Source: Gemmatimonadetes bacterium SCN 70-22 (GTDB lineage: Bacteria > Gemmatimonadota > Gemmatimonadetes > Gemmatimonadales > Gemmatimonadaceae). Taken from it: DNA of 36,369 bases. A program made the translations under genes and the position numbers. Location of the stretch: NCBI GenBank assembly GCA_001724275.1, contig MEDZ01000035.1, forward strand, positions 1-36,369. Direction: 5' to 3'. Position 1 is the stretch's first letter. Every line of letters starts with the position of its first letter. Below, in pieces: positions 5,178 through 23,411 of this stretch. The notes beneath the pieces are model-generated. The model saw only the letters and a program-made list of their open reading frames with translations. It searched no databases and was not told where the DNA came from.

Positions 5178-5178
5178 G

Positions 5179-6646: not shown

Positions 6647-7998
6647 CGGCGTGGTGCCTTGCGAGAGGTCTTGGCCGTAGCGCGCGACTTGGGAGCACGT
6701 GGCGCGTCCGACTCGCGCTCGGCGCAGATGCGGTCGAGCAGGACGGAGGCGGGTTCGTCGTTAGGGTCCTGCGAGACGAGCTTGCCCTCGAAGGCGTGCT
6801 TGAGGATGGACTGGCGGAGGCGCGTAGCGCGGAGGAGTTGGATGTCGATCTCCTGCTCGCACCGATCGATCGCGATTAGCTGATCGTCGACAACAGCAGC
6901 GACGAGCTCTTGCTCCTCCACTGTTGGCGGAACGGGAACTGCGAGCTGCTCGATATCCTGCTGGTTGATCTTGTATATCCCGGCCGTCGTGCGAGCCTGC
7001 GATTCGATCTGGCGACGTACCGCTGAGGAATCCCACGCGATTCGGAGAAACGCCGCGGTCAGCACTCCCTGATTCGGACGAACCCGAATCAGCGTATCCG
7101 GGTACGCGACACCCCGTCTCACGTGCCCCACCATCCCTCCCCGGCCGACGAGCCTTCGCGATCCATTTCCCCTCGACACAAGGAAATCACCCTCTCGAAT
7201 GAGGAACGGCCGCGCGGCATCCGGGCTCCAAGCGCCAATCTTGAACTCGCCCTGATCGATCATCCCCGATCGGAGGCACGTAAGTCGGAGAACCGGAAAA
7301 CCCTTGTCTGCAGTCGGAACGGACCTCCCGTTGGAGAGCGGCTCCGCCAGCAGCTCACCGATTCTCCGAGTTGGAAATGCGGAGAGCGCCGCATCACGGA
7401 CAGACTGGCGAAGCCGTCGTGCATTCGCCCGCGCCCGCTCCAACCCCGCCACCGCCGCATCCAGCTCCGACAGGTTCTCCTCGAGCGCGGCGACGATGCG
7501 GCGCTGCTCGGCGAGTGGAGGCAGTGGCAAAGGGATCTCGGCGATCGTGCGAGAGGACAGGTGCTTGACAGTTATGGCCGATGTGTACTCGTTGATAGCA
7601 GAGAGGTAGCCGGGAAGCACGTACGCGAGGAACTTTCGCTGCAGTACCGCCTCATTCGGCGAGATCTTGCACACTCGTTGATTCAGAGCGGCAACGGGTC
7701 CGCGCCAAAGTGCCGCGCTGAAGTCGCCATCCATTCCGACGACAAGTTCTCCCGCCGAGACGAGGAACTGCGGATCAACTCCTCCGTCGAAGCACGCATC
7801 GGTCGACTCGGACCGGACGTCACGTATACGCAGGAGGGGAGTCCCCCGATCCTTCGTGAACTTCGCGGAGGGAAACGGGAAGCCGTTGAGTATCGTCGCG
7901 ACGCGCCCCAGTGCGACGCGGCGCCAGTGAGGGGCAGCCGAGAGCAGACCGTTGCGGTTCTCGCGCACTATCTCCTTGAGCGACGCTGTGAAGCTCAC
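6643..7998 (-). CDS. hsdS: Type I restriction-modification specificity subunit
   Basis: A 451-residue HsdS with the usual layout: target recognition domain 1 (about residues 20-170), a central helical conserved region ('LPPLAEQRRIVAALEENLSEL'), target recognition domain 2 (about 215-370) and a second conserved helix region ('VPPTVEEQELVAAVVDD'). The two TRDs each recognise half of a bipartite site. It begins with GTG overlapping the hsdR stop by four bases and overlaps mrr at its end. TRD sequence looks less GC-rich than neighbouring genes, as expected for segments exchanged by recombination. Recognition sequence cannot be predicted by eye. Confidence 0.93.
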   Translation of the reverse strand: MSFTASLKEIVRENRNGLLSAAPHWRRVALGRVATILNGFPFPSAKFTKDRGTPLLRIRDVRSESTDACFDGGVDPQFLVSAGELVVGMDGDFSAALWRGPVAALNQRVCKISPNEAVLQRKFLAYVLPGYLSAINEYTSAITVKHLSSRTIAEIPLPLPPLAEQRRIVAALEENLSELDAAVAGLERARANARRLRQSVRDAALSAFPTRRIGELLAEPLSNGRSVPTADKGFPVLRLTCLRSGMIDQGEFKIGAWSPDAARPFLIREGDFLVSRGNGSRRLVGRGGMVGHVRRGVAYPDTLIRVRPNQGVLTAAFLRIAWDSSAVRRQIESQARTTAGIYKINQQDIEQLAVPVPPTVEEQELVAAVVDDQLIAIDRCEQEIDIQLLRATRLRQSILKHAFEGKLVSQDPNDEPASVLLDRICAERESDAPRAPKSRATAKTSRKAPRR

Positions 7999-10910
7999 GC
8001 CGCCACCACCCCCGTCACCTCGTCAATTACCGTCTTCAGCGAGTCCCCAAACACCCGATGCGCCGCCCCCAGCCCGCCACGCTGCGCGAACGGCGCATAC
8101 TCGAAGTCATCCACGTCGATCTCCACGTTGGCCGCCAGGTGGTCGACGATCTCCGCCAACCACGTCTTCTGTTCATCGGTGAAGCGCCGCCCACCCGCCT
8201 CCATCTTCGACATCCACGCCGCGAACCGCGCGCGCGCCACCTCGGGGAACGGAGCCAGCGCGTCGTCGCGATGCAGGGCGAAGCGCACGAGCGAGACGAC
8301 GTCGGTGAGCACCCGCGCCGGACGCCCCCGCACGCGCGAGCGGTCGAGCAGCTCGTACGCCCGCCAGACCTCCTCCAGCGCCAGCGGCGGCTTCTGCCGA
8401 GCGAGCGTCTCGGTCAGCTCCTGCAGCGCGTCGCGCGTGAGGCGTCGCCCCTTGGCGCGTCCGTAGAGGAGCTGCAACGCCACGAACTCGTCGCGGTGCT
8501 TCGCGATGAACTGCTCGAAGCTCGTCGTCAGCGACGCCGCGCGCTGCCGCGCCTCGGGTGAGATCCCGGCATCGAGCAGCTCGTCCTGCGACGCGATGTC
8601 GATGACCTGCTCCTTGGATCGCTTGAGGTCGAGGATGCGCTGCCGCAGTTGCGGGTTGGTGGCGAGCGGCGCTACGGCGTCCTTGATGAGCTGCGCGCGT
8701 GCCTGCTCGACGCCCTGGATGCTCGGTTCGGCGCTCCCCTTGACTCCCTCGTGACGGCGCGCCTGCGCCTGCGCGTGGTCCGGGTCGAGCGCCAGGACGA
8801 TGGCGTGGGCCAGCTCGCCTAACGACCTCCCGCCGGCGGCATCCTTGATGCTCTCGTGCTCGGCCTTGCCGAGCTGCCGCTCCAGGCGCGCCAGCCGGCT
8901 CGCCACCGTGGAGGCGACGTCAGGGTCGGTGTTCCCCATCGCGACCGCCTGCAGGAGCTTCTCCAGCGAGACGGTCGGCTCGCGGTCGAGCGGGCGCGTG
9001 TCGGAGAGGTCCTCTTCGCTCACGCCCACGCAGTCGATGATCACGAAGCGCGTCTTGGCGTCGGCGTCCGGGGTCACCGCCTTGAGGTCGTCGGGCTTGA
9101 TGACTCGCACGCCGCGCCCCTTCATCTGCTCGAAGAGGGTGCGGCTCTTCACCGTGCGCATGAACCAGAGGACCTCGAGCGGCTTGACGTCGGTCCCGGT
9201 GGCGATCATGTCGACGGTGACGGCGATGCGCGGGTGGAACGAATTGCGAAAGCTCTGCAGGAGGTCCTCCGGCTTCACCCCGCTCGACTTCCAGGTCACC
9301 CGCTCGAACTCGGTGCCGTCGTCCTTGCGCACCTTCTCCACGAGGCGCACGGTCGACGTGCGATAGGTGATCTTCTGCACTGCGTCGTTCCCCAGCCCAA
9401 GCTCGTCGCGGATGATCTGCACCAGGTCGTCGGCGTGCGAGTCGTCCTTGGCGAAGACGAGCGTCTTGGGAACGTGCGTGCGCTCCGGAAAGACTTGCGG
9501 GAGGAAGTGGTCGCGGAAGGCGCGCACGACCGTGCGAATCTGGTCGGGGGCGACCACGTCGCGGTCAAGCGAGGCGCCGCCGTAGGCAAGCTCCTCGTCG
9601 AGCTTCTCCCACCGCTTGGCGCGCGTCTCGCGATCGCGCTTGTCGACCCACTGCCCCGCCTCCACCGTCGACCCCTGCTCGGTGATCTTCGTGCGGATGC
9701 GGTAGACGTCGAAGTCGACGTTGACCCCATCGGCCACCGCCTCCTCGTGCCCGTACTCGGCGACCACGTTCCCGTTGAAGAAGCCGTAAGTGAGCTTCGA
9801 CGGCGTCGCCGTGAGCCCGATGAGGAAGGCGTCCCAGTACTCCACCACCTGGCGCCAGAGCGTGTAGATGCTCCGGTGCGCCTCGTCGACGAAGACGATG
9901 TCGAAGGTCTCGATGGGGATCGTCGGGTTGTAGACCACCGGGAGCGGTTCCTTCCGGAGCGCGTCCAGCCCGCCTAACGCCACCGCCACTTCATCGGCGC
10001 CAGCCTCATCCCCCTCCTCCGGGAGATCCTCCTCTCCCTTGAGCATGGAGTACAGGCGCTGCACCGTCCCGATCACGACCTTGGCCACCGGGTCGATCTT
10101 GTTGTGCGTGAGGCGCTGGACGTTGTAGAGCTCCGTGAAGAGCCGCCCGTCGTCGGGCGTGCGGTAGCTCTGGAACTCCTTGAGCGCCTGCTTGGCCAGG
10201 TTGGCGCGATCGACCAGGAAGAGCACGCGCGTGGCACCGCCAAACTTGATGAGGCGGTAGATCGACGAGACCGCCGTGTACGTCTTCCCGCTCCCCGTCG
10301 CCATCTGCACCAGGGCGCGCGGGCGGTTCTTCGCCAGCGAGACCTCCAGGTTGCGCACCGCGTCCAGCTGCGCCGGCCACATCCCCCGCTCGGCGACCGG
10401 CGGCAACACCGTCAGCCGCCCGCGCAGCGACGACGGGTGCAACGAGAGCGGGTCCGGCTTCCCCTTGCGCTCGGGCATCCAGAGCGGCTCCGCCTCCAGC
10501 CACTCCGCTATCGTCTCCGGGCGGTGAAAGGTGAAGACCTCGCGGCTCTTGGGGACCGGGTCGAGCCGGCTGGTGAAGCGCGTCTCGACCCCGGTGCTCT
10601 GATAGAGGAAGGGGAGCGGGCGAGTCGGCGCCGGGACCCCAGCCGGGACGCCGTTGCCGTATTTCTCGCTTTGCAGCTCGAACTCCGTGAGCGGCGTCCC
10701 GGCCTTCTTCGCCTCCACCACCCCCACCGCCTGACCGTCGACGTAGAGGAGGTAGTCGGCGAAGCCGTGGCCGCTCTTGAGCGGGAACTCGCGGATCGCG
10801 ACCCCGCGGGCGGCGTGCACGTTGAGAGCGGACATGTCCTGTAGCACCCATCCGGCGGCGGCCAGCTGGGCGTCGATGTCGTGCCGTGCGCGGGCTTCGG
10901 GGGTGGTCAC
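7995..10910 (-). CDS. hsdR: Type I restriction endonuclease / translocase subunit
   Basis: About 971 residues from a GTG start at 10910. N-terminal PD-(D/E)XK nuclease: 'FADYLLYVD' (Asp52) and 'VVEAKK' (Glu66, Lys68). Superfamily 2 helicase core: Walker A ATGSGKT (204-210), DEAH box (342-345), and 'QMKGRGVRVI' near motif VI. The C-terminal ~300 residues match the helical region found in EcoEI-type HsdR. HsdR translocates DNA and cleaves unmethylated targets with the M2S complex. The open frame extends 57 codons further upstream, but that stretch is Pro/Arg-rich and unlike HsdR, so I chose the GTG just before 'TTPEARARHDID'. No strong Shine-Dalgarno is visible. First gene of the operon. Confidence 0.93.
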   Translation of the reverse strand: MTTPEARARHDIDAQLAAAGWVLQDMSALNVHAARGVAIREFPLKSGHGFADYLLYVDGQAVGVVEAKKAGTPLTEFELQSEKYGNGVPAGVPAPTRPLPFLYQSTGVETRFTSRLDPVPKSREVFTFHRPETIAEWLEAEPLWMPERKGKPDPLSLHPSSLRGRLTVLPPVAERGMWPAQLDAVRNLEVSLAKNRPRALVQMATGSGKTYTAVSSIYRLIKFGGATRVLFLVDRANLAKQALKEFQSYRTPDDGRLFTELYNVQRLTHNKIDPVAKVVIGTVQRLYSMLKGEEDLPEEGDEAGADEVAVALGGLDALRKEPLPVVYNPTIPIETFDIVFVDEAHRSIYTLWRQVVEYWDAFLIGLTATPSKLTYGFFNGNVVAEYGHEEAVADGVNVDFDVYRIRTKITEQGSTVEAGQWVDKRDRETRAKRWEKLDEELAYGGASLDRDVVAPDQIRTVVRAFRDHFLPQVFPERTHVPKTLVFAKDDSHADDLVQIIRDELGLGNDAVQKITYRTSTVRLVEKVRKDDGTEFERVTWKSSGVKPEDLLQSFRNSFHPRIAVTVDMIATGTDVKPLEVLWFMRTVKSRTLFEQMKGRGVRVIKPDDLKAVTPDADAKTRFVIIDCVGVSEEDLSDTRPLDREPTVSLEKLLQAVAMGNTDPDVASTVASRLARLERQLGKAEHESIKDAAGGRSLGELAHAIVLALDPDHAQAQARRHEGVKGSAEPSIQGVEQARAQLIKDAVAPLATNPQLRQRILDLKRSKEQVIDIASQDELLDAGISPEARQRAASLTTSFEQFIAKHRDEFVALQLLYGRAKGRRLTRDALQELTETLARQKPPLALEEVWRAYELLDRSRVRGRPARVLTDVVSLVRFALHRDDALAPFPEVARARFAAWMSKMEAGGRRFTDEQKTWLAEIVDHLAANVEIDVDDFEYAPFAQRGGLGAAHRVFGDSLKTVIDEVTGVVAA

Positions 10911-11710
10911 GCTGGGGGGGCGTGGGGCTCGGGTTCGCGGAGGTGGCCTGGGGGCGGGCGCTCGACAGGGAGGGTGGAGCGCGAATGCCCTAGCCCAGCC
11001 CGAGGAGCCCCGGGGGAATTTGGGGTGAGGGTGGGGGGTTGGGGAGGGTGCGGAGCAACCTGACGTTGCCACGCCACGCACGGCGTGGCACCGCGGCGAC
11101 GGCGGATCGAACTAATCCAGTGACTCGGTTATCACGTACCAGACGTTGAAACACTTGCGACTTAACAAATCGAACCTCCGGCAATCCCGGGGCGGTTCAT
11201 TTTGCTGCGTGACGCAACCAATGGGAACGACCCAGCCGGTGCGCTGAAGCTGGCGTTGTGTGCGGGTCACTGATGGTCCGACGGCCTGCGGAAACGTTGC
11301 ACTCGGCCGTGGCGCTGACAGACTTGCCCCCCTCTCACCTCCGCCGAGTCGTGCCCCAACCGCGACAGAACGTGGACTTCAAACTCGGTGCCGACCAGGT
11401 CGAATTCATCTTCAAACGGCCGGTGGCTGAGGGCCGCGCCGGCCAACGCGACGTTAACCCGGTGCTCGCGGACATGGGACGCGAAATCGGGGCGCTCGAG
11501 CGTGTCGAGCGCACTTGCGCGCACTGAAATCGATCGCGCCCTCGAGGGTGGCGCCACCTCTGTTCGCCATGTGATGGACGGGCGCCCACCTATTAACGAC
11601 GCGGTACACGACCATTCGCGGGGACAGGACTCTCCAGACCTGTACGACTCATCCTGACTCCCATCCTGGTGCCGGCCGCGAGCGCGTTGACCGATTCGCT
11701 ACGGATACCG
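10911..11710. other. 800-bp intergenic region between the two defence operons
   Basis: This presumably carries the hsdR promoter and the terminator of the Gabija-like operon. It contains a 9-bp inverted repeat (11067-11090). Open frames at 11258-11557 on both strands are short and mutually overlapping; the minus-strand one has a patch that looks protein-like (FEDEFDLVGTEFEVHVL) but matches nothing I know. No convincing gene. Confidence 0.5.
11067..11090. repeat. 9-bp perfect inverted repeat upstream of hsdR
   Basis: TGCCACGCC (11067-11075), six-base spacer, GGCGTGGCA (11082-11090). It lies about 160-180 bp upstream of the chosen hsdR GTG. It could be an operator or a stem-loop of the 5' leader; there is no following T-run, so a terminator is less likely. 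Confidence 0.6.
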
Positions 11711-13465
11711 CTACCGAACGAAGCCGAGCAGGGGAGAACCGCCGAGATCTGGGGCGATGATCGTCCAGAAGCGCGTCGCACGAGTAACCACGACATAGAA
11801 GAGTCGGCGCGACTCGTCGTCATCAGGCCAAAACCTTGCCGACGCGTCAGCGAGAACCACGGCATCGAACTCCTTTCCCTTGCTCTGGTGTGCCGTCATG
11901 ACAAAGAGTCCGTGGCCATGGCGCGGGGCTCCGTGCGTTAGCGTGAGAACAGCCGCCGAGTACTCGGCGAGTGCGCGGGCGAGGTCGGCGGGCGATCCGG
12001 CCAATCTATCGGCAGTGCGCTGAATAGCGCGCGCCGCTTCGACGCGAGGCAGGTGGTGACCCGACGCTCTGCACGCATCAAGTGCAGTCGCCACCGCATT
12101 GAAGAATCGCCCGGCCCCGTCGGCGAAAACGGAATCGAATGCGCCGAGGAGCCGAGCGGCCTCGGGACCAGCCCCTCGTGGGTTGGTGCCCGTGGCTGTG
12201 ATCCTCCTGCGCACTTGGTCAACAACGGCCGCCGAAAGCGTTGGCACGAGCGCCGACACTCGATCTAGCGCATGCTGAGCAAACGCCCGTCGATCCTGGA
12301 AGAGGGGCAACTGCTCAATGTCGTGTCGAGCTTCCTCGAAATCTTGGGTGCCAATCTGCCGCGGGTACTGCGACTCCCTGCACAGGTAGGCCTGAAACTC
12401 GGAGGCTCGATCGTTGTCTCGTACCAGAACGGCTACAGACGAAGCCCCATTCGTAAACGCGCGGGCTACGGCCGCCCTGATGAACGGCTTCGCACCGTTC
12501 AACCCGCGTTGAGCGGGAGTGATTCTCAAGTCGCACTCGGGTGGTTTGGGACAGGCGGCATCGCGGCCGGCTAGCCGTTCTCGAACGGCGAGCAACCATC
12601 TGGCTACGGGCTCGCGACCGTGCCACCGATGCGGTGTGCTGAGGCTGAGCTGTTGGCCGCAATCCGCGGCGTGCCGTTGGAGCCGGGTGCGGCTTGCCCC
12701 GCGGAACTCGTGGATTAGCTGCATGTCATCAGCGAATACGGTCAGTCGCCGATCACCGAGCCGCCGTGCGATCGCATCTTGGAGGGCAGACGCATCTTGG
12801 TGCTCGTCCGCGATAACGACCGGATACCGATCGCGGTATGCTCGGTCGACGACGGGATACCGTGTCAGCAGGGACCAGAACAGCGCTCCTAGATCATCGA
12901 AGACGAGTCGTCCGGCGATCTGCTCTCGATGGACGGCCAGGAGCAACCTCTCCAATAGATCTGGCGCAGGGGTGCGCGCGTCCTGGAATTCGGGGAAGCG
13001 ATGCTCGGCGATGGACTCAACGACTCCATTTGTCCCTCCGAGCCTGGCACGATCGGGGCCGAGGTTGAGGGCCACCTCGCGTCGCGCGCGACTGCCGATG
13101 TCGATTTCCATCGGCAACCCAAGCGCGCGGCGGTATGCGGAGACGCCCTGCCAGAAAAAACGGTGGTAGTTGGTGATCTCGACTCGGTTCCGCAGGCTTC
13201 CCGGAAGCCTTAGGGCGGCTTCGCGTTCGAGCTGAGACCGAGCTTGGTTGGAGAACGTCAGCAGTAAGACCCGCTCTCCGTGCGAGAGCTGCGCCGCCCA
13301 TTTTGCTGCCACTCGGACCGAGAGGCAGGTCTTGCCGGTTCCTGGAGGCGCCGACACCAACACATGGCGGGCATCACTCACCAAGACGGCGTCGTGATCA
13401 GAATCGGTCCGAAGCTCAGGCACCCGGCCCCATCGCGATTTCTCCGCCTGACCGGCAACCATCAA
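11711..13465 (-). CDS. UvrD/Rep-like superfamily 1 helicase, GajB-like
   Basis: A 584-residue SF1 helicase-like protein. Seen: Walker A APPGTGKT (39-46), motif Ia-like 'LLLTFSNQA' (68-76), a Walker B/motif II 'VVIADEHQDAS' (Asp220-Glu221), motif III-like 'LTVFADDMQLI', motif V-like 'TAHQSKGKEFDAVVL' and motif VI-like 'RRLFYVVVTRA'. All core motifs are present, so it is likely an active ATPase. Paired with the preceding OLD-type gene it has the layout of Gabija (GajA nuclease plus GajB helicase), an anti-phage system. The first possible start overlaps the upstream gene by 50 bases; a GTG at 13423 would give an 8-base overlap and is equally plausible. Last gene of a four-gene operon. Confidence 0.85.
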   Translation of the reverse strand: MMVAGQAEKSRWGRVPELRTDSDHDAVLVSDARHVLVSAPPGTGKTCLSVRVAAKWAAQLSHGERVLLLTFSNQARSQLEREAALRLPGSLRNRVEITNYHRFFWQGVSAYRRALGLPMEIDIGSRARREVALNLGPDRARLGGTNGVVESIAEHRFPEFQDARTPAPDLLERLLLAVHREQIAGRLVFDDLGALFWSLLTRYPVVDRAYRDRYPVVIADEHQDASALQDAIARRLGDRRLTVFADDMQLIHEFRGASRTRLQRHAADCGQQLSLSTPHRWHGREPVARWLLAVRERLAGRDAACPKPPECDLRITPAQRGLNGAKPFIRAAVARAFTNGASSVAVLVRDNDRASEFQAYLCRESQYPRQIGTQDFEEARHDIEQLPLFQDRRAFAQHALDRVSALVPTLSAAVVDQVRRRITATGTNPRGAGPEAARLLGAFDSVFADGAGRFFNAVATALDACRASGHHLPRVEAARAIQRTADRLAGSPADLARALAEYSAAVLTLTHGAPRHGHGLFVMTAHQSKGKEFDAVVLADASARFWPDDDESRRLFYVVVTRATRFWTIIAPDLGGSPLLGFVR

Positions 13466-15257
13466 CGACCCACCGGTTTAAGTGAACGAACGCATTTCGA
13501 AACGTGGCGGGTACTCCCTGATGAGCGATGATCGTCTCGGCCAGGATGCGGGCCTGACGAGCGCCCTTCTGTTCGAACGGCGATGCCGTCTTAGATCCGA
13601 GCGCACGAGCAAAGACCTTTCGGCACTCATCGGGGTCGAGGCATGCCACGAAATCGTCGAGCGAGGTGGTAGTCCCAGCGGCGCTCCGACGTGCCGGATC
13701 CACGCCATCGCACCGGCTGATCAGATCCGTGCGCTGCTCTTCCCACGCGTAGCCACGATCGTTGGCAACCGCGCCCATGCCTGCGGACAGAGCGCTTAAG
13801 TCGCATCCCCACGCCAGTGCTCCCTCAAGGTTCTGTCGATCGGGAGCGAGGTCGTGCAGCACCAAGGCGCCACAGTGTCCTTCGCGCTTCAACCGATCAA
13901 CCTCACGACGGGCAGCATCTGTATCCTGATCCACCCAAGCGACGACCGTTCTGCCCGCCGCACGTAGGACAGCGGCCAGCATCGGCATGTTTGAAACGCC
14001 CTCAGCATTCACGATGTCGAGCCCGATGCGGAAGGAGTGAGCCACTTGCTCAGTCCGAGCGAGTTCACGCCAAAACACTTCAAAGACAGCGCGATCGCTT
14101 GGACCCTCCACCAGCACCGGAATGCGACAGAAAAGCCCACGGACGACCGGCCCGTCCAACCGCCTCTCGTAGGCCTGTCGGACTGCAGGTGGAATTTGAC
14201 CAGCAAGGTGCACGGCGTTCGCCCCGTTGGTTCTCTCATGGAGTAGTAGGAAACTGTCGATACCAAACGCCCGAACGATATCAGGGGAATGGGTGACGAG
14301 GAATACCTGACCATTCGCCTCCGTAATTTCCTGGATCATCGATGCAACTTGGACCTGCCTGAGTGGCTCGAGCGCTTCCTCGGGCTCCTCGAAGGCGGCA
14401 AGAGGTGCCGCTGCGGCGTCGGACGAAAGACGTAGAAGTAGCGAGACCAGCGCCAAACGCTGCGTGCCACGACCTTGTCGCGAGAGGGGGATGTTGGTGT
14501 TGCCAACGGCTGGCAGGGTCAGGCGCAGGGTTTGTAGCAGCGCGCGCTGGGAGACGGAGCCGAGCTCGAATGCGGCCGCTTCCTCATTCCTGATTAGTCC
14601 GACGCGCTCCAGTTCCTTGGACACCTTTTGCAGGACGCCATCGATGGCGGCATCCGAGTTGAGCGCCGCCGTACCGGTGCGAATGACCTCCCGAAAGGTC
14701 CCGAGTGCTTCGCCGAGATCTACTTCAGCGAAGTACCGATCGAGCACGCCACCTTGATAGAAGAAGAGTTGACGGGACGGATCACGGCTCCGACCGTCGA
14801 ACACCCATCGAACCTGTGCGCGCAGCCGTGGATGAAACCGCGCTGCGTTCGATTCCGGCTTCGCGAACTCATGAATGGCCTCGAACTCGTCTGTGCCGCG
14901 GACCCTCACACGCACGACAGCCTCCACGCCATCCCCATCCGGTTCGGCTACCAACTCGCTCGAGGCAGCCCGCCAACCCTCCAGGTGATGATGCACCTCC
15001 GCGCTGAATGCGCGCGACAGGTCCCCTAACACCGCCTCGATCTCGAAGCCGCTGTCCGGATCGCGCATATGGTAGTCGATCTCCTCAAGCGCGGGGCGCT
15101 GGCGACCGAGTCCGCTGTGGAGCAGAAGGTCGAGTGCCTCGAGCACGGTGCTCTTCCCGGCGTTGTTCGGACCGAGGATGACGGTGCAGGGACCGGGGCA
15201 GAACGTGAGATGCTTTAGAGCGCGGAACCGCTGAATGGTTAGGCGGCGGACTCGCAT
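13416..15257 (-). CDS. OLD-family ATPase-TOPRIM endonuclease, GajA-like
   Basis: 613 residues from the ATG at 15257 (MRVRRLTIQRFRALKHL, the typical beginning of this family). ABC-type ATPase domain: Walker A GPNNAGKS (29-36), a signature-like 'SRQGRGTQRLAL', Walker B 'LAAFEEPEEAL' (286-296) and switch 'FLVTHSPDIV'. C-terminal TOPRIM nuclease domain: 'VLVEGPSDRAVF' (Glu384) and 'VAWVDQDTD' (Asp443, Asp445). OLD proteins are DNA nucleases; with a UvrD-like partner they constitute Gabija. An in-frame start at 15368 would overlap the upstream gene by 38 bases and adds 37 residues without family character, so I prefer 15257. Tightly linked to the helicase gene downstream. Confidence 0.85.
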   Translation of the reverse strand: MRVRRLTIQRFRALKHLTFCPGPCTVILGPNNAGKSTVLEALDLLLHSGLGRQRPALEEIDYHMRDPDSGFEIEAVLGDLSRAFSAEVHHHLEGWRAASSELVAEPDGDGVEAVVRVRVRGTDEFEAIHEFAKPESNAARFHPRLRAQVRWVFDGRSRDPSRQLFFYQGGVLDRYFAEVDLGEALGTFREVIRTGTAALNSDAAIDGVLQKVSKELERVGLIRNEEAAAFELGSVSQRALLQTLRLTLPAVGNTNIPLSRQGRGTQRLALVSLLLRLSSDAAAAPLAAFEEPEEALEPLRQVQVASMIQEITEANGQVFLVTHSPDIVRAFGIDSFLLLHERTNGANAVHLAGQIPPAVRQAYERRLDGPVVRGLFCRIPVLVEGPSDRAVFEVFWRELARTEQVAHSFRIGLDIVNAEGVSNMPMLAAVLRAAGRTVVAWVDQDTDAARREVDRLKREGHCGALVLHDLAPDRQNLEGALAWGCDLSALSAGMGAVANDRGYAWEEQRTDLISRCDGVDPARRSAAGTTTSLDDFVACLDPDECRKVFARALGSKTASPFEQKGARQARILAETIIAHQGVPATFRNAFVHLNRWVVDGCRSGGEIAMGPGA

Positions 15258-15330
15258 GGACGGGCGGACAGGGCGTGGGCTCGCATTGTGTGGCGCAGTT
15301 CGCGATGTGACGGTGATGGATGGCACATGA

Positions 15331-16119
15331 TCAGGCTCCCCCCTCCTGAGTGCCGCCACTGCGGACATCGATGGCCGGAAAGCCGAGTGCTGCGCGCACT
15401 CGTGATATCAGGAGCACTAGCTCGCCGAAATCGCGGATTCCCGAGTGCGTGCAGATGTACCTTCGGAGCGCGGCCTTCGACGGATGCTCCCATCTGATAC
15501 GCCTAAGCTGGCCGTCGCGATACTCCTTGCTGCAGTTGGCCCCGCCGAGGGCAAAGAACGCCTCCTGTGCCGGCAAGGGGATCAGATCCTCGATGAGGAC
15601 GTCGGGCCGCCCAACCAGTGTCGGATGGGCGGATGGGTCGAGTGTGAGCGAGTGCCGGTCAGGGCGGAACCCGTACTTCTTGATCTGATCTCGCGCTTCG
15701 CGGCCGGCCCAGTCGTGGTCAAACACGAACACGATGCCCAAGAGAACTTCGGCCCGAAAAAAGTCACCAAACAGAGCTGCGGCCATGTCGACCATGCGCT
15801 TGACACCACCGCTGGCTGGGCGGCCGTTCTCACCCGGAACGACAACCGCTATTCGGCGCTCTGATCCGCGGCGCAGGGTGGGCGGTACGTCAAGCGGGCT
15901 CACGCCGTGGGCTGCCTCGAAGAGTTCTGCGGCGCGCTGAATGTAGCCACGGTCAGTGGCACCCTCTACCACCACCATAAAGTCAGGTAGGCCAGAAAGG
16001 TTGGGTACCGCGAACTCGTCGCGGAGTGTCGCGAGGACCCGTGCTTCAATACTAGGCTGCTGAGGTCGGGCCCCAGGTTCCGGCGCTGCACGGGAGATGC
16101 GACTCCGATTGATCTCCAT
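15331..16119 (-). CDS. Stand-alone TOPRIM-like protein in the Gabija-like operon
   Basis: A 262-residue protein with the hallmarks of a TOPRIM fold: strand plus 'VVVEGATDRGYI' (Glu52) and, after 80 residues, 'GIVFVFDHDWAGRE' with the DxD pair Asp134/Asp136. TOPRIM domains chelate Mg2+ and occur in primases, topoisomerases, RNase M5 and OLD nucleases. No ATPase or DNA-binding domain is visible, so it is a free-standing domain with a ~110-residue unassigned C-terminus. It starts nine bases after the stop of the 1065-aa gene and ends 73 bases before the OLD-type gene, so it is co-transcribed with both. Such a gene is not a component of described Gabija systems to my knowledge. Function: possible second nuclease or regulator (inference). 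Confidence 0.7.
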   Translation of the reverse strand: MEINRSRISRAAPEPGARPQQPSIEARVLATLRDEFAVPNLSGLPDFMVVVEGATDRGYIQRAAELFEAAHGVSPLDVPPTLRRGSERRIAVVVPGENGRPASGGVKRMVDMAAALFGDFFRAEVLLGIVFVFDHDWAGREARDQIKKYGFRPDRHSLTLDPSAHPTLVGRPDVLIEDLIPLPAQEAFFALGGANCSKEYRDGQLRRIRWEHPSKAALRRYICTHSGIRDFGELVLLISRVRAALGFPAIDVRSGGTQEGGA

Positions 16120-16128
16120 TCAGAGCCG

Positions 16129-19100
16129 CTATTCAACCGTTGGAGGAACGGCCTGCGGGCCAAAGTTGGTAAACCGAATAAAGCAATCCCGCTCGGATCC
16201 GTGCCGCAGGTTGGGACCAAAGTCGTGCACCCGCATGGGGATCTGCACGGTGCCCCATCCATGAGGGACCCCAAAGTAGTTCCGCCCTCCATCCGCCAGG
16301 TTGCGGACAAAGATGGAGGTCAAGAGGCGCTCGCTGAACGATTTGGCCGGATCCCCGAGAAAGCGCATTTCATCGGGCACATGGAGGGCGCCGCCGCGCT
16401 CGCCAAGCTGGTCCCTAAGGTGACGGAACACCGACTCGCCCCTTCTTCGTTGAGCAGTCTCACCGATTTGAAACAGCAGAATGCCGAGCTCCATCATGAT
16501 CTGAAGCGGCAGCGAGAAATCGGGATCGCCCTCCAGAGCGACAAGGAGCTCCAGTCTTTCAGCAAAGTCCAGCGGTCTCCTCCGCGAAATGACTCTATAG
16601 AGTGCGAAAATCGACCGAGACGTGGCTTGGTCGACTGGCACGGCCCTCAACAACCTCTCAGCCTCAGAGAGCGCTTCCTCGGATGGTGCGGCCTCGGATG
16701 CATGGATGCGCACCGCAAGCTTCGCAAGGGCCACGAGCGCAGGTTCGGATCCATTTTGGGCCAGACGAACCAAGAGCGATCGGCCGTCACCTTTCTCCAG
16801 GGCGTCGTACGCGTTGGCGAGCTCGAACAGAATGGGCTCTTCTCGGCGCCCTCCTTGATCGGTTTGAAGCTCCCACTCAAGCAGGCTGATCGCATCCACC
16901 ACCAATCGGATACGCTCCTCTCCGTCAACGAACGGCATCTGCTGATTCAACTTGAACCGCGCGAAGTTCTCCAAGACATAGGAGTTGTCGGAGTCCATCC
17001 GTTGCGCCGCACGGTAGGCGGCATCCGCAGCCGCACGGAATCTCTCGGCTTCTGTAGGGTGGCCGGTGCGGTGCTCATGCTTGGCCCGAGCGTCGTACGT
17101 CAGCGCGAGCGACACTCTCAGATTGAGGGACGATTCGCGTCTACCATCATCGCTTGGCCGGATATTGTCGATTGCATCAAGCAAATGGTTCTCGGCTAGC
17201 TCAAGCTGCTCGCGCACGGCATCTGAGTGCCAAGAGGCATCGGGCGGGTCCAACGCTAGATGTCGCCGGGCTTTCGCAACGTGATGGTTGAAGATCTGGC
17301 TGTCATCCCAAACCGCATCCGGAACCCGCTCGAGCATCCGTACGATACGATCGCGCTCCTGATAGTTCCGAGGCGCTTCGAACGGATCCACTCGCAGAGC
17401 CGAGGTGACGAGTTCCTCGACTAGCCTAACGCCGACTGGTCCGCCTATGACATCACGTGTGATGATGCGCTCCAGCACGTGCAGTTCGAGGTCGAACGCG
17501 TTCAGACAGGCTGGCATCCCGACGGCAGTGAGCGCCGAATCGTCACGTGACGCGAGCCGAAGCAGCTCCTCGGCCGTCAGTGAGTGCGCGAAAGCAAACC
17601 CCGATGACGACGCACGGTGCAGGACGATGAGGCCAAGGAGATTGCTGTCCTCGCTAGCCAATGTGCGTAGCTGGCGAAGGGCACCGGACGCGAGCAACTC
17701 CTGCGGCATCTCAAGCCGGTGCTTTGACAACGCGGCGGTTTCGAGAACGGCTGCATAGAGATCAGGGCGCCCAGCCGTCGAGACGTCAAGGTGCCGGCGC
17801 AACCAAGTGTGGAGATGCTCTTCGGATCCGGGGACGCGGAGGAGCCAGAACCGAAGCGCCACCCAAAAGAGGCTGCGGGTGCCTTCCGACGTTACACGAA
17901 GCGTGTCGGCAATCACCCATTCCCACTCGCTCCGCGTGCGTCTCAGTTCAGGAGGCAGAATCCTGTCGAAGTGCTCGCCGAGGGCGACGGCCTCGTCGAT
18001 GTCCACCGAATTTCGCAGCGGCGGACGCAGAAACTGGTTGGAGCCCAGCGCATCACGCCGAGCGTCATCCGTGCGGTCGTTGTACGGACGGACCGCAAGG
18101 ACGATCGCGGAGCGTTGCAGGCGCTTGAGGCCGCTCGCGACGCCGGTCACAAACTCCCACTGCAGTTGGGTGTGCTGGGCGTCGAAGACGATCGTCCATG
18201 GTGTCTCACCCGACGACACACCTTCGGCTACGAAGCGATCTCCCGCGCGCGTGAGGAATGTGGCGAGCTGGTGAAAATCAAAGTCGAGTGCGTCGGCCCG
18301 AGCGACGAGGACCGGGTGGCCGGCGTTCGCCAAATCAAACGCGAGCTGGCGTACGGCTGTCGTGGCACCTGACCCGTCCTCTGCCTGAAGCCAGATTGTT
18401 TCTGTGGCGGCCGGGCCCTCTCGCGAGAAGCGAGCGAGATACTTAAGTACAACGCGCCGGTGCTCAGCATGTCGGGGATACGGTATTCCGGATGCGTAGG
18501 GACGCCAGTCCCCAGCCGGGTGCGCCAGGAATGCGCGGAGGGCATCGAGAGTCGGTGAACCGCCATCAAGCAGGTGGCGGATGGAGACAAGTTCGAACCG
18601 CGAGGTGATGGGATGGCTACGGTCAACGCATGTTGCGAGATTGATGGACTTGTCCATGTCTCCTGCGCGAACGCGAATGAGCAGGCCGTCGGCCTCCTCG
18701 CCCAGCGGTTCGACCGAGTCAAGACACTCCAGGAATTCTGCGACCGACGCCGGCCAGTGAATCGCCGTGTCGACGCTAGGTAGCGTAATCGGGTCGGGCA
18801 ACCGCGGTCCGACGAAGACCAGCCGCCGAATGGCGTCCGAGAGTTCACACGCCTGCAGGAGTCCGGCGAGGTCGCTCTGACGCGTGAGGCCGAGGACGAA
18901 GACAACCGCACCCGCGGGCACCCTCTGCAACATCTGGAGACGGTGCAGGGTGCTGACTGCGGACGGGCGCGATGAGGACGGTGATGTCGCCGAAGTCTCT
19001 GGGAGGACGTAGATCGGAACGCGGTTCTGGGGCGGATCAGCGGCTGGATTTTCGCGGTACACCCGAAATGGCAAGTCGCCAACGAGGGGATGTTTGTCGC

Positions 19101-19326
19101 GAACCGCATCAACGGGGAGACCTTCAGCGTCGAGGAAGACGGCAGCCCACGGATGGAGTAGCGTTCCGGCTAGGGCGCCTACAAGAGCTTCTGGTTCCTC
19201 CGCCGATGCGACCTGGGAGGAGAATCCGGGAGCGATCCACAGAACGGCGCGCCGCGTCTGAACCGCTATCGGCCATGCTGCGTCGGGCGTTCCGACGGAA
19301 TCCACGTGAATGCGTTGTTCGCTCAT
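16129..19326 (-). CDS. Large P-loop-like and TPR-like protein, first gene of the Gabija-like operon
   Basis: About 1065 residues from the ATG at 19326 (other starts at 19344 and TTG 19353). Three regions are visible. Residues 1-300: alpha/beta segment with 'PAGAVVFVLGLTRQSDLAGLL', faintly SIR2-like at its end, not assignable with confidence. Residues 305-450: STAND-like NTPase region, with a P-loop-like 'AEDGSGATTAV' (315-325) in which the invariant Lys is replaced by Ala, and a Walker B-like 'TIVFDAQH' (378-385). Residues ~690-990: helical repeats of TPR type. The last 50 residues are strand-rich (GWGTVQIPMRVHDFGP). Sensor or scaffold proteins with STAND-plus-repeat layouts are common in anti-phage defence; that role is inferred. 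Start of the operon, with a 200-bp upstream region before the IS256 remnant. Confidence 0.7.
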   Translation of the reverse strand: MSEQRIHVDSVGTPDAAWPIAVQTRRAVLWIAPGFSSQVASAEEPEALVGALAGTLLHPWAAVFLDAEGLPVDAVRDKHPLVGDLPFRVYRENPAADPPQNRVPIYVLPETSATSPSSSRPSAVSTLHRLQMLQRVPAGAVVFVLGLTRQSDLAGLLQACELSDAIRRLVFVGPRLPDPITLPSVDTAIHWPASVAEFLECLDSVEPLGEEADGLLIRVRAGDMDKSINLATCVDRSHPITSRFELVSIRHLLDGGSPTLDALRAFLAHPAGDWRPYASGIPYPRHAEHRRVVLKYLARFSREGPAATETIWLQAEDGSGATTAVRQLAFDLANAGHPVLVARADALDFDFHQLATFLTRAGDRFVAEGVSSGETPWTIVFDAQHTQLQWEFVTGVASGLKRLQRSAIVLAVRPYNDRTDDARRDALGSNQFLRPPLRNSVDIDEAVALGEHFDRILPPELRRTRSEWEWVIADTLRVTSEGTRSLFWVALRFWLLRVPGSEEHLHTWLRRHLDVSTAGRPDLYAAVLETAALSKHRLEMPQELLASGALRQLRTLASEDSNLLGLIVLHRASSSGFAFAHSLTAEELLRLASRDDSALTAVGMPACLNAFDLELHVLERIITRDVIGGPVGVRLVEELVTSALRVDPFEAPRNYQERDRIVRMLERVPDAVWDDSQIFNHHVAKARRHLALDPPDASWHSDAVREQLELAENHLLDAIDNIRPSDDGRRESSLNLRVSLALTYDARAKHEHRTGHPTEAERFRAAADAAYRAAQRMDSDNSYVLENFARFKLNQQMPFVDGEERIRLVVDAISLLEWELQTDQGGRREEPILFELANAYDALEKGDGRSLLVRLAQNGSEPALVALAKLAVRIHASEAAPSEEALSEAERLLRAVPVDQATSRSIFALYRVISRRRPLDFAERLELLVALEGDPDFSLPLQIMMELGILLFQIGETAQRRRGESVFRHLRDQLGERGGALHVPDEMRFLGDPAKSFSERLLTSIFVRNLADGGRNYFGVPHGWGTVQIPMRVHDFGPNLRHGSERDCFIRFTNFGPQAVPPTVE

Positions 19327-19565
19327 GTTGCGATGACCCGGCATTGCGCTCAAAGACCCGGTGACGAAGGGCCCCTCGAGATCGAATGGGACGCTTCGTG
19401 GGCGGGGAGAGAGGGCGTGAGTGATGTGGACTGGGTGAGTTCGTCGGAGAGGGGCGGCACGACCGCTCGTTCATGTGAATCTACCGGCAAGGGCGATGGC
19501 GCGGCAGACTGTGGTCATGTCGGCGCGCCGAGCAGCCGCTGAACCGCCCCGGGTTCGTCGGAGAC

Positions 19566-20294
19566 GGGCTTGTCCGATCTTCTGTGAATGAGCCGCTACG
19601 CCTGAACGGCCTTCACCACACGTCCGGCGGACGGTCGCCGAACAGGAGCTTCAATTGCGGCAGCGCGGCGCGCCAGTGCTGCGCGGGTTTGGCATGCCAG
19701 GTCTTCTGGATGTTCCGCAGCGCGAGGTACAAGAGCTTCGCGGCCGCCTCGTCGTTTGGGAAGTGCCCCCGAGCCTTGAGCTGCTTGCGGAGCTGGCTGT
19801 TAAAGCTCTGGATGGCGTTCGTCGTCTAGAGCACCCGGCGCACCGCGAGCGGATACGCGAGGGCGGGGGTGATGCGCTCCCAGTGCCGCTCCCAGAGCGC
19901 CAGAATCTGGGGATAGCGCTGTGCCATCGGTGTGGTCGCCAAGTGGCAGAGCGCCACCCGGGCGCTGGTCTCGCTGGGGCCCTGATAGATCGCCCGCAGC
20001 AGCGGCACGAGCGCTATCCGGTCCTGGTAGCTCACGAACTGCAGACTCTGGCGCACGAGGTGCACAAGGCACTGGTGGATCACCGTGTGCGGAAGCACGG
20101 CGTGCAGCGCCTGGGGGAGCCCGGCCAGACCGTCGATGAGCGCGATGAGGATGTCGGCCACCCCGCGGCTCTGCAGTTCGCTGAAGACGCGGTGCCAGAA
20201 CGCGTCGCCTTCGGTCTGCACGATCCAGAAGCCGAGGACCTCCCGTGTCCCGTCCGGCTGGACGCCTAACGCGAGGTAGACCGTCTTGTTCTGG
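19566..20294 (-). mobile_element. IS256-family element, 5'-truncated remnant
   Basis: The 3' half of an IS256-family element on the minus strand. Its right end is placed near 19566, where the sequence after the transposase stop (ATTCACAGAAGATCGGACA) resembles the terminal repeat region of IS256 elements. At the other side it stops exactly at the end of the adjacent IS3-family element (20294/20295); the missing 5' half is not found beyond that element. Boundary at 19566 is approximate. Confidence 0.7.
19613..20294 (-). pseudogene. IS256-family (mutator-type) transposase, truncated and with an internal amber stop
   Basis: The reading frame begins abruptly at QNKTVYLALGV next to the IS3 end, continues through 'ILIALIDGLAGLPQAL', the 'CLVHLVRQSL' motif and 'YPLAVRRVL', then meets TAG (19826-19828) exactly where family members have Tyr in 'YTTNAI', and resumes in frame with 'TTNAIQSFNSQLRK' to 'FGDRPPDVW' and TGA at 19613. 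Thus it has lost the N-terminal third (and first catalytic Asp) and carries a nonsense mutation just before the catalytic region ending. It is certainly inactive. The frame is otherwise intact, so the amber codon is recent. Confidence 0.9.
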
Positions 20295-20319
20295 TGACCT
20301 GCTCCCCAAAGCGGGACCA

Positions 20320-21168
20320 CTACGAAGTGCAGGCCGGGGACTGGGGTGAACGGGTGAAGGTGCGCGAGTATTCGTTCGGGGTCAATTGCTGCAGGGAGCA
20401 ATGCGGACGCACGGTGTTGTAGTCGTCCTGCCACGCGGAGATGATGTCTCGGGCATCGTGCAGATTCGTGAACCAGTGTTGGTCCAGGCATTCGGCGCGG
20501 ATCTTGTCGTGCAAACTCTCGACGTAGGCGTTGTCGACGGGCTTCCCGGGGCGGATGAAGGCGAGTTGCACCTGGCGTGCATACGCCCACGCATCGAGCG
20601 CGCGGGCGACGAACTCGCGGCCGTTATCGACCGTGATCGCGCGGGGCGTGCCGCGCAGGCTGGTGACGTCGTCGAGGACGCGCACCACTCGAGCGGCGGG
20701 CAGCGACGTGTCGGCTTCCAAGGCGAGGCATTCTCGCGTGAACGTGTCGATGAGGCTGAGTACGCGAAAGCGGCGACCGGTCGTGCACTGATCGCTGATG
20801 AAGTCCATCGCCCAGACCTGATTCGGCTGGATGGCGACGGGACGGGGCACCCGAGCGAGCGAGACCTGTTTCCGCTTCCGCCGTCTGACCTGCAACCCCG
20901 TACTGCGATAGACACGGCGCACGCGCTTGTGATTCACCTGCCAGCCGTCGCGGGCCAGCAAAACGTGCAGCCGGCGATAGCCCCAGCGCGGTCGCTCGGC
21001 GGCCTTCTCGCGCAACGCGTCCGCCAAGGCGCCATCACTGGGCCGGGTGCTCTGGTGATACCAGCGCGAGCGCACCCGGTGCACGAGCTCGCACGCGCGA
21101 CGGGTGCTCACGGGATACGTGGCCTTGAGATGGGTGACGGCCGTCCGTCGCTGTGCCGGCGTCACCAC
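20320..21168 (-). CDS. IS3-family transposase OrfB (DDE integrase)
   Basis: A 282-residue rve-type integrase. Seen: N-terminal HTH_21-like region ('DGALADALREKAAERPRWGYRRLHVLL'), catalytic DDE triad in 'WAMDFISD', 'ITVDNGREF' and 'YVESLHDKIRAECL', and the C-terminal 'DDYNTVRPHCSLQQLTPNEY' typical of the IS407 group of IS3. GTG is the first in-frame start and overlaps orfA by seven bases; in this family OrfA-OrfB fusion is normally made by -1 frameshifting, which is likely here although no strong slippery sequence is evident. The stop codon lies inside the terminal repeat region. Intact and possibly active. Confidence 0.92.
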   Translation of the reverse strand: MVTPAQRRTAVTHLKATYPVSTRRACELVHRVRSRWYHQSTRPSDGALADALREKAAERPRWGYRRLHVLLARDGWQVNHKRVRRVYRSTGLQVRRRKRKQVSLARVPRPVAIQPNQVWAMDFISDQCTTGRRFRVLSLIDTFTRECLALEADTSLPAARVVRVLDDVTSLRGTPRAITVDNGREFVARALDAWAYARQVQLAFIRPGKPVDNAYVESLHDKIRAECLDQHWFTNLHDARDIISAWQDDYNTVRPHCSLQQLTPNEYSRTFTRSPQSPACTS

Positions 21169-21428
21169 TTTCGTCCCACCACGTCTTTCAGCATCGAGTT
21201 GTCGAGGCTGAGCTCGGCCACGAGGCGCTTGAGGCGCGTGTTCTCGTCCTCGAGGGCCTTGAGCCGTTTCACCTGGGGCAGGCCGATCCCGCTGTACTTT
21301 GCCTTCCAGCGGTAGAACGTGGTCTCCGTGATACCGTGCTTGCGCACCACCAGGCGGGCGTTGTCACTGCCCGCCGCCTCCTTCAGGATCGCGACGATCT
21401 GCTCTTCCGTGAAGCGCTTCCGCTTCAT
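21162..21428 (-). CDS. IS3-family transposase OrfA (HTH protein)
   Basis: 88 residues from the ATG at 21428 (MKRKRFTEEQIVAILKEA). An HTH_Tnp_1 helix-turn-helix ('VVRKHGITETTFYRWKAKY') is followed by a leucine-zipper-like coiled coil ('LKALEDENTRLKRLVAELSLDNSMLKDV'), the standard OrfA layout for end binding and multimerisation. A start six codons upstream (MPEEAH) exists, but MKRKRF matches the family N-terminus and has GGAGGAGG in front of it. Confidence 0.92.
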   Translation of the reverse strand: MKRKRFTEEQIVAILKEAAGSDNARLVVRKHGITETTFYRWKAKYSGIGLPQVKRLKALEDENTRLKRLVAELSLDNSMLKDVVGRKW

Positions 21429-21503
21429 GTGGGCCTCCTCCGGCACCGGGCCTGGCTCGTGCCCCTAACCTACCACTCGGTCCCGTTCTCGGGGCGCAGG
21501 TCA

Positions 21504-21553
21504 CCACTACTGCGATCCGCACCCGCGTTCACCTGCAGCAAGCGTCGTTAGGC
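21504..21553 (-). other. Truncated attC-like site (left half) cut by the IS3 element
   Basis: On the minus strand, 15 bases after the stop of the 173-aa gene, comes GCCTAAC (21553-21547), matching the RYYYAAC core of integron attC sites, followed by GACGCTTGCTGCAGGTGA, which looks like an attC arm. The site is interrupted at 21503 by the IS end, and no matching GTTRRRY half is found on the far side of the two ISs. Assignment rests on similarity in position and form to the complete site at 22121-22214. Confidence 0.5.
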
Positions 21554-21568
21554 TGAGGCGCGCCAGAA

Positions 21569-22090
21569 CTAGCGCACCCAACCACGTGTGAGAAGAAGAT
21601 CTCTACCCCTGCGCGTTGGCGTGAGCATCGTGCCGTGCATGTAGTTCTGATGCAACGTCACCAGCTTCTCCCTCTCGAGCCGTTCGATTGCGCGGTCCAG
21701 CCGGAGAGCCGCAACGCCCGACTCGCGCGCTAGTGTGCTGACACTAACTCTGCCGCCGTCGTAACGCGCGAGAGCCTGCATTGCCCAGGACTCAACCTCG
21801 TCCAGTTCGGGCAAGGAATCCGTCGCTGTCTCAGCGTCGGCGAGTGCCCGGCGAATCCATACGACAAGACCCGCGACACCAACCGCTGCCGCGATTGCGA
21901 GAATACACGCCCAGACGGGGACCGCAAGCTCAATGCGATACGCTAGAAGGTTCCACAGCGCTCTGACTGCCAGTGCCCCGAAATCCCAACCTTGCGGAAC
22001 AACCCCGCTCACCTTGCCGAGTCCTGCGAGGATTAGTCCGCCGAGGACGGTCGCGACGGTACCGTCACGGACTGGATGTTCGCTTTTCAT
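21569..22090 (-). CDS. Two-helix membrane protein with a C-terminal winged-helix domain (cassette gene)
   Basis: A 173-residue protein I do not recognise. Two hydrophobic segments are visible (residues about 12-32 and 55-82, the latter 'PVWACILAIAAAVGVAGLVVWI'), then a linker and a C-terminal winged-helix-like domain (100-165: 'EVESWAMQALARYDGGRVSVSTLARESGVAALRLDRAIERLEREKLV'). A membrane-anchored DNA- or protein-binding role is inferred. It is flanked on both sides by attC-like sites, begins 30 bases after one of them and has no obvious promoter, consistent with an integron gene cassette. Confidence 0.7.
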   Translation of the reverse strand: MKSEHPVRDGTVATVLGGLILAGLGKVSGVVPQGWDFGALAVRALWNLLAYRIELAVPVWACILAIAAAVGVAGLVVWIRRALADAETATDSLPELDEVESWAMQALARYDGGRVSVSTLARESGVAALRLDRAIERLEREKLVTLHQNYMHGTMLTPTRRGRDLLLTRGWVR

Positions 22091-22120
22091 CTCCGAGGGT
22101 GCAAGGAGACCGTGACTTCA

Positions 22121-22214
22121 GTCTAACGTCTGGGTTCACGTGCAGCCGAAGGTAATAGTGCGAGCGGAGCGAGCACACCATAGCCCGGCTATCTGGTGCA
22201 ATCTCATGTTAGGC
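22121..22214 (-). other. attC-like recombination site of an integron cassette
   Basis: Read on the minus strand, the 94-bp element starts with GCCTAAC (22214-22208, RYYYAAC core) and ends with GTTAGAC (22127-22121, GTTRRRY core); the two cores pair at six of seven positions. Between them are imperfectly complementary arms (TTGCACCAGATAGCC against GGCTGCACGTGAA) with unpaired bases and a central hairpin-like GTGCTCGC...GCGAGCAC-type segment with mismatches, all as in attC sites. The core contains the TAA stop of the preceding gene. Length and orientation fit. No integrase gene is in the window. Confidence 0.65.
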
Positions 22215-23093
22215 GGGCTCTTGGCCTATGCGTGCCTTGACGTGCTCCGCGCTGACACTGATGGAGCCGGTCGCTGGCTCTCTAGTAACCACGCGAAGCA
22301 CGCCGTCCGCAACCCCCGCCTCCGCAATCGTTGTCGCCACTTCCCCGTGGACTACCGTGCGTGAGACGACTGGTGCCAGCTCGGCAATGGTGTCGATGCC
22401 GATTACGAGACGAGTGAGAGTACCGACCTCACCGTTCGGCCCTCGCACGATGCAAGGAAAGGGCGGTTCGTAGATCGCATGAAAACTGCCCGACCCCGCA
22501 GGAGCATGATCAAGCAGTGTGCTTCGGACTTCGGGGCTGTCGGATACCTGGCTGAGAATTGCGCCAACGCGGGCCTCGGCGTCGCCGTCCTTCTGCATCA
22601 AGACGGTCTCCTTTGTCGCTGGCCACCTGACCAAGGTGCCATCGTCTAGTCTCACATCGACCACAGGATCGAAGCTCGGTCGTAGGAGTTTGACTGAACC
22701 CCCGATAAGCTGGCGTGCCAGCGAGGCCCATGGAGCACGATCGATCCCCCCCGGGACGATCGTCTCGATCCCGAGTGCCCGCGCCTTCGTGATCGCGCTG
22801 TTGGAGAATCCGGTCGACGACCAGAGCACCAGCTTTGATGTCGGAAGGTCGTCATGCTTCTGAGCCATGGCTTCAACCCACGTCACATCTGCGGCACGAC
22901 CGCGATCGCGAACCTCGATACTGATGACAATGGGATAGCCACCCACGAGTGCCTCGGCGACAACGTCTACCTCCCGCTGCTCGCCCGTGCGCGCGTCCGT
23001 GAGGGATCGCGATTCTTCAACGGTCCATCCGGGGCCGAGGTCTTTGTGAACGGCAGCAACGAGCCGTTGAAACATGTTCGAGCGAGCTGGCAT
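22209..23093 (-). CDS. Restriction-endonuclease-like protein (PD-(D/E)XK), cassette gene
   Basis: A 294-residue protein whose first ~130 residues look like a PD-(D/E)XK nuclease of the Mrr/HJR type: 'EQREVDVVAEAL' (Asp43) and 'PIVISIEVRDRGR' (Glu60, with Arg62 where Lys is usual), followed by a helix 'WVEAMAQKHDDL' and strand 'SKLVLWSSTGFSNSAITKARALGI'. The C-terminal half is strand-rich and unassigned. The Lys-to-Arg change leaves activity uncertain. The TAA stop lies within an attC-like core, and a GTTAGGC core sits just upstream of the start, so the gene looks like an integron cassette; a defence role is inferred from the fold. Confidence 0.75.
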   Translation of the reverse strand: MPARSNMFQRLVAAVHKDLGPGWTVEESRSLTDARTGEQREVDVVAEALVGGYPIVISIEVRDRGRAADVTWVEAMAQKHDDLPTSKLVLWSSTGFSNSAITKARALGIETIVPGGIDRAPWASLARQLIGGSVKLLRPSFDPVVDVRLDDGTLVRWPATKETVLMQKDGDAEARVGAILSQVSDSPEVRSTLLDHAPAGSGSFHAIYEPPFPCIVRGPNGEVGTLTRLVIGIDTIAELAPVVSRTVVHGEVATTIAEAGVADGVLRVVTREPATGSISVSAEHVKARIGQEPA

Positions 23094-23102
23094 TTTAGCT
23101 CC

Positions 23103-23120
23103 GCCTAACGCCAGTTAGGC
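23103..23120. repeat. Inverted pair of core-like sequences, GCCTAAC-N4-GTTAGGC
   Basis: GCCTAAC (23103-23109), four bases, GTTAGGC (23114-23120): a perfect 7-bp inverted repeat directly upstream of the nuclease cassette's ATG. Read on the minus strand it presents GTTAGGC at the position expected for the recombination point of an incoming cassette. The arms between cores are missing, so it is either a collapsed attC, part of an attI-like site, or a chance use of the common genomic word GCCTAACG. Confidence 0.6.
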
Positions 23121-23324
23121 CTTCCCAGATAATCCAACCAAGAGCTGCACTCCAGCACTATCCGCCACCCCAATGCGCGCATAACACCACTCCAGCTCGA
23201 TCCACACTCCACCCACATCTCCCTGCAAGCGAACAACTTGGCCCTCCAACCGCATTCGCCCGCACCCGCGCTATCCTCGCATCTTCACTCGGATAATCAC
23301 AATAGCCCCTGCAGACAGACAACA

Positions 23325-23354
23325 CGGGGCCCCCAGCTCTCCCCGGGGGCCCCG
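23325..23354 (-). terminator. Probable terminator hairpin downstream of nrdJ
   Basis: A perfect 10-bp stem, CGGGGCCCCC (23325-23334) and GGGGGCCCCG (23345-23354), with a 10-base loop, 58 bases past the nrdJ stop on the minus strand. The sequence after the stem in that direction (TGTTGTCTGTC) is T-rich but not a clean U-run. Confidence 0.7.
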
Positions 23355-23411
23355 CTCAACATCTCACCTTATCCCCCCCCGCCCCACCCCCCTCACCCCA
23401 TCAGATAGCTA

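Follow-up and report, generated by a model that had tools for sequence, protein, structure and literature searches.

A 36,369-nucleotide stretch of DNA from Gemmatimonadetes bacterium SCN 70-22, here called the window, very probably carries a displaced fragment of this genome's own sedentary chromosomal integron. The fragment consists of two cassettes and one intact attC site, and lies between a ribonucleotide reductase gene (nrd) and a defence island. The window is the whole of contig C35 in a draft assembly of 4.70 Mb in 84 contigs. Read on the minus strand, the order is nrd, a hairpin, an 18-bp site, a 294-aa open reading frame (ORF), the attC site, a 173-aa ORF, a core stump and an IS3-type element. 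Past this element are a truncated Mutator/IS256-type transposase, a STAND NTPase gene, a Gabija pair (GajA, GajB) and a type I restriction-modification region. The features relevant to the analysis are as follows:

25916-23412, minus: nrd, upstream of the cassettes
23324-23355: terminator-like hairpin of nrd, between nrd and the cassettes
23103-23120 (18 bp), minus: L-box/4-nt/R-box site GCCTAACTGGCGTTAGGC (GCCTAACTGGC GTTAGGC), with 7+7 perfect inverted cores; borders cassette 1
22209-23093, minus: cassette 1 gene, encoding a weakly Mrr-like protein of 294 aa; its stop codon falls within R'' of the attC
22121-22214 (94 nt), minus: intact attC; R'' GCCTAAC at 22214-22208, R' GTTAGAC at 22127-22121, extrahelical base at 22199 (C on the plus strand)
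21569-22090, minus: cassette 2 gene, encoding a 173-aa protein with a hydrophobic N-terminal half and a weak C-terminal winged-helix match
21507-21553, minus: attC stump of cassette 2; GCCTAAC core and ~40 nt, interrupted by the insertion sequence
20292-21506, minus: IS3-type insertion sequence; orfA 21446-21162, orfB 21168-20320, terminal repeats TGGTGACCTGC
16129-19353: STAND NTPase gene
2581-2667, minus: second attC, decayed; retains the inner stem and loop but has degenerate cores
2548-2117, minus: 143-aa ORF after the decayed attC

The defence island occupies positions 11711-15368 and 3088-11081 and contains Gabija-like GajA/GajB, type I restriction-modification, Mrr, PIN and HTH genes. 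Searches with Rfam models at their gathering thresholds gave no match anywhere in the window. An insertion-like repeat is common to window positions 1-98 and to positions 8517-8614 of L104, on contig C84. Because the two contig ends share this repeat, the left end of the window is taken to be an assembly break.

The attC site at 22121-22214

The 94-nt element at 22121-22214 is recognizable from its sequence as a genuine attC site of the genome's own type. A covariance model, R1, was built from nine aligned attC-like sites on contigs C1 and C24, with the letters of the window excluded. These nine sites came from a search seeded with an alignment that included the window site; the independence of the model thus concerns the window letters and not the initial search. 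R1 scores the element at 85.8 bits on the minus strand (E 1.8e-23 in the window and 2.3e-21 genome-wide) versus 10.0 bits on the plus strand, which makes the orientation of the site clear. The element is 79% identical over 94 nt to an attC site on C1, and 84% identical over 87 nt to an attC site in the array of a sister species.

The predicted fold of the plus strand, which corresponds to the attC bottom strand, pairs both core boxes. Pairing of L'' with L' and an extrahelical base on the L'' side are present and are supported by covariation. Among 54 aligned attC sites, drawn from this genome and from relatives, 90.1% of the named pairs form, a figure that is inflated because the alignment was fitted to the model; shifting the pairing partners by one to three columns lowers the share to 21-41%. 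Covariation scores 0.430, versus 0.148 +/- 0.011 in shuffled alignments, and 143 cells of the alignment hold double changes. The slid controls, together with these double changes, leave little doubt about the predicted attC structure.

Some of the simpler evidence does not point the same way. Chance alone would give ~0.7 RYYYAAC...GTTRRRY pairs of attC spacing in the window, and the folding energy of the site does not differ from that of shuffles (z 0.87); neither line decides the identity of the site. A scanner based on simple arm complementarity likewise did not separate it from background. The core-pair expectation and the ordinary folding energy are what would favor the view that the site is a chance 7-bp core pair around a terminator-like repeat. 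However, the genome-wide score with a model independent of the window letters and the covariation already refute this view, and the identity to attC sites on C1 and in the sister species also argues against it, so that we give it virtually no chance. The original prediction of a 94-bp attC with properly oriented cores and complementary arms is therefore borne out by the R1 score, folding and covariation. Its placement of the nuclease gene's stop codon inside a core is also correct, as the TAA at 22211-22209 lies within the GCCTAAC at 22214-22208.

At the extrahelical base of L'' (column 17 of alignment A3; window position 22199), all 54 attC sites carry G on the top strand and hence C on the bottom strand; the nine training sites shared the C, so some ascertainment is possible, yet the scores span 38-99 bits. 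In the best-studied attC sites, this base is G on the bottom strand. An extrahelical C is known in attC-dfrA1, and several integrases tolerate C well (PMC3053210; PMC2727003).

Cassette genes and their partial borders

The 294-aa ORF has the properties of a gene cassette: an attC site in the same orientation at its stop codon, a leader of 9 nt between the preceding GTTAGGC and its ATG, and no sigma-70-like promoter. Cassette 1 would be 982 bp in length. The cassette 2 ORF starts 30 nt past GTTAGAC. Both genes lie on the minus strand and, as had been proposed, face the same way with short leaders and no evident promoter, although sigma-70-like promoters, the kind searched for, may not be the rule in this phylum. 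Expression of the two genes is expected to depend on read-through or on an unrecognized promoter.

The first gene had been described as encoding a nuclease, a label that is weak. The 294-aa protein has remote similarity to annotated restriction endonucleases, but its match to Mrr_cat (15.4 bits) is under the cut-off of 21. A true Mrr gene sits in the type I restriction-modification region of the window. A structure model of the 294-aa protein, built without an alignment, has a pLDDT of 46 and is too poor for a structure search. Elsewhere in the phylum, three genomes each hold one remote, partial match to this protein, and no relatives of the 173-aa protein were found in 394 other genomes of the phylum.

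The two sites that flank the intact attC are partial, and the intact cassette unit is consequently incompletely bounded. The core-like pair noted before the first gene is a real L-R box at 23103-23120, a kind of pair for which the chance expectation in the window is 0.07 per strand. However, the attC stem is missing, which accounts for the low R1 score of 9.8 bits. It may be what remains, as the 3' half, of an attC that was lost, or else a simple site resembling attI or a junction of the attG type. The second GCCTAAC core, reported to follow the next gene, is present at 21553, but only the first ~47 nt of the site remain, and the IS3-type element takes over from 21506. Across this stump/IS junction, R1 gives 3.6 bits.

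The distal attC, that of cassette 2, was thus lost to the IS3-type element. Because it cuts this attC, the element either came after the cassettes or made a deletion next to them. No other full copy of the element was found in the genome. Two candidates for the missing attC half were rejected. A core near 21466, considered as the partner of 21553, is inside the IS3-type element; a GCCTAAC at 20264 is inside the Mutator-type transposase frame, and the flanks of the insertion sequence share no target duplication.

The decayed attC at 2581-2667 is ~19.5 kb from the intact site and scores 35.7 bits with R1 (E 3.5e-6 genome-wide). Over the rest of the window, R1 detected nothing convincing beyond these two sites.

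The integron of this genome and its relatives

No intI was found in the window, as originally predicted, and therefore none on the whole of C35. Elsewhere in the genome, one intI exceeds the family cut-off (340 bits; cut-off 265), on contig C16. Its R, H-x-x-R, H and Y motifs are kept, but ~42 N-terminal residues are absent, and the encoded IntI may for this reason be inactive. R1 gives ~20 attC matches genome-wide, on C1, C24, C77, C9, C84 and C35 and in weaker places. The rest of the genome thus has an intI and related attC sites, so that the outcome said to refute the original prediction did not occur. C1 carries a large attC array, in which the cassette cargo includes BrnT, CopG antitoxin, DUF433 and DUF5615 genes, all of them usual cassette cargo.

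One cassette is found both after attI on C16 (L015 155-1) and after an attC on C9 (L103 9060-9215). Because the identity between the two copies begins exactly at the crossover (G|TT, within G|TTATGC), we infer that IntI-type recombination has occurred in this lineage. An 81-bp segment from the attI side of C16 is also copied on C9 (L103 7427-7507). Another cassette gene exists in two copies that are 88.5% identical, on C1 (L016 96-696) and C24 (L018 2255-2855), of which the one on C24 no longer has its attC. The first 99 bp of C1 and C24 are the same.

In the sister species G026, nrd lies near the same hsdR/Mrr genes, with other genes between them, and identity is 85-89% over most aligned stretches. 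No attC was reported on this nrd-hsdR contig of G026, and the species has its array of more than 20 attC sites beside its own intI on a different contig. Because G026 keeps the neighborhood without an attC, the cassettes in the window appear to be displaced from the main integron. A search for an unoccupied nrd site covered the two other genomes of the genus: the intergenic region of G026 differs, and G053 has no match there. The intergenic sequence after nrd did not align to relatives.

Some genomes of the family that are assembled as one contig, such as G097 and G109, have stray attC sites hundreds of kilobases from intI, and contig breaks are thus no general explanation for such sites. In all seven relatives checked (G026, G016, G097, G022, G109, G029 and G070), intI shares a strand with its attC array, which lies 3' of it. 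We found no description of this inverted arrangement in Gemmatimonadota in the literature searched.

The original description of the locus was a cassette array without an integrase (CALIN-like). The cassettes and the lack of a nearby integrase agree with this description, but "array" is too strong for one intact attC, an 18-bp remnant and a stump truncated by an insertion sequence. IntegronFinder 2 calls a CALIN only when there are at least two attC sites (PMC9024848), which we took as sites clustered within ~4 kb with no integrase nearby. The interval 21.4-23.4 kb has one intact attC, and the only intI over the cut-off in this draft assembly is on C16. A SALIN is a single-attC element without an integrase (PMC12690207), which corresponds to the single intact attC on an intI-free contig. 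Because there is one intact attC, the locus is best classed, on sequence features, as a SALIN by strict label, or as a decayed CALIN. It is not a complete integron, given that its contig has no intI and that of the genome is truncated.

The locus resembles the CALIN and SALIN classes of IntegronFinder: as in these, the cassettes are attC-bounded, no integrase is close by, and the genome has, or once had, an integron. It differs from a CALIN in its one intact attC. The two-cassette CALINs of Xanthomonas that lie away from ilvD (PMC12444791) are similar in having few cassettes off the main locus and an intI that is often truncated, but they belong to another phylum, whereas the locus in the window adjoins a defence island and is truncated by an insertion sequence. 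Gemmatirosa kalamazoonensis, from the same family, has a sedentary chromosomal integron (NZ_CP007129.1; PMC9024848) with the same attC type and with intI and cassettes on the same strand, although its large array is beside a full-length intI. In G016, the integrase gene has the coordinates that it has in NZ_CP007129.1, which identifies the family studied as that of G. kalamazoonensis. In the chromosomal integrons of Treponema (PMC3607928), transcription of intI runs toward the array and in the same direction as the cassettes, and the Gemmatimonadaceae relatives examined have this layout too; this likeness to a different phylum is one of gene arrangement.

Probable origin of the cassettes

In the favored interpretation, the two cassettes, encoding an Mrr-like protein and a membrane/winged-helix protein, came from the intI-linked array. 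They would have moved by the action of IntI at a non-attI site or by rearrangement, and later decay would have left a single usable attC. Given a working IntI, the plus strand (attC bottom strand) would fold and recombine at the expected crossover, between 22127 (G) and 22126 (T). Excision of cassette 1 would be efficient only if the site at 23103-23120 still serves as a partner. Because the only recognized intI is truncated, the fragment is probably frozen now.

Two mechanisms of displacement are considered, because the upstream junction can be read in the three ways given above and the downstream junction is destroyed. Transfer by insertion sequences or by recombination other than that of IntI has close to an even chance. 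The IS3-type element without a target duplication and the truncated Mutator-type transposase both adjoin the cassettes, and another decayed attC is found across the defence island on the same strand. However, the insertion sequence cuts the distal attC, with the consequence for its timing noted above, and none was seen on the nrd side. Alternatively, and more tentatively, IntI may have put at least one cassette just past the nrd terminator by off-target (attG-type) integration, in which case 23103-23120 contains the left junction. The cassettes are directly past this terminator, where the sister species has none, and closed genomes of the family repeatedly show stray attC sites a long way from intI. 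Off-target integration at attG sites has been established in other systems (cited in PMC12901181). Against this, the left junction is a perfect L-R pair, which is beyond what an attG site minimally needs and equally fits a truncated attC or an attI-like site, and the insertion sequence has destroyed the right junction.

An artefact of assembly, in which cassettes of the main array were misjoined or were split from intI by contig breaks, is very improbable. Draft contigs do break at repeats near cassettes (C1/C24 and C9/C16), and C35 and C84 end in a common repeat. However, the cassettes are internal to a 36-kb contig, and the sister species has the same order of nrd, hsdR and Mrr as this contig; stray attC sites are also present in family members assembled as one contig. 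We favor displacement from the genome's own integron.

In a broader and unlikely interpretation, the Gemmatimonadaceae integron would be a distinct type, with intI facing the array and an L'' extrahelical base that is always C on the bottom strand, and its integrase would repeatedly have inserted cassettes at ordinary places in the chromosome, in this case between nrd and the defence island. If true, off-target integration of cassettes would give defence islands a natural means of acquiring genes.

Integrons in Gemmatimonadota have already been listed (PMC8618304), and displaced CALINs are common (PMC12444791). The locus is thus a sound but ordinary find, a fragment of a kind already well known, and the general picture of integrons is unchanged by it. 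Its value is that a displaced cassette is independently confirmed in a little-studied phylum, beside a Gabija and restriction-modification island, and that it offers a clear test case for cassettes leaving the main array. The family-wide features of attC and intI, namely the inverted intI and the C extrahelical base, could inform studies of integrase-attC co-evolution. A contig search with an IntI query matched one Deltaproteobacteria metagenome-assembled genome.
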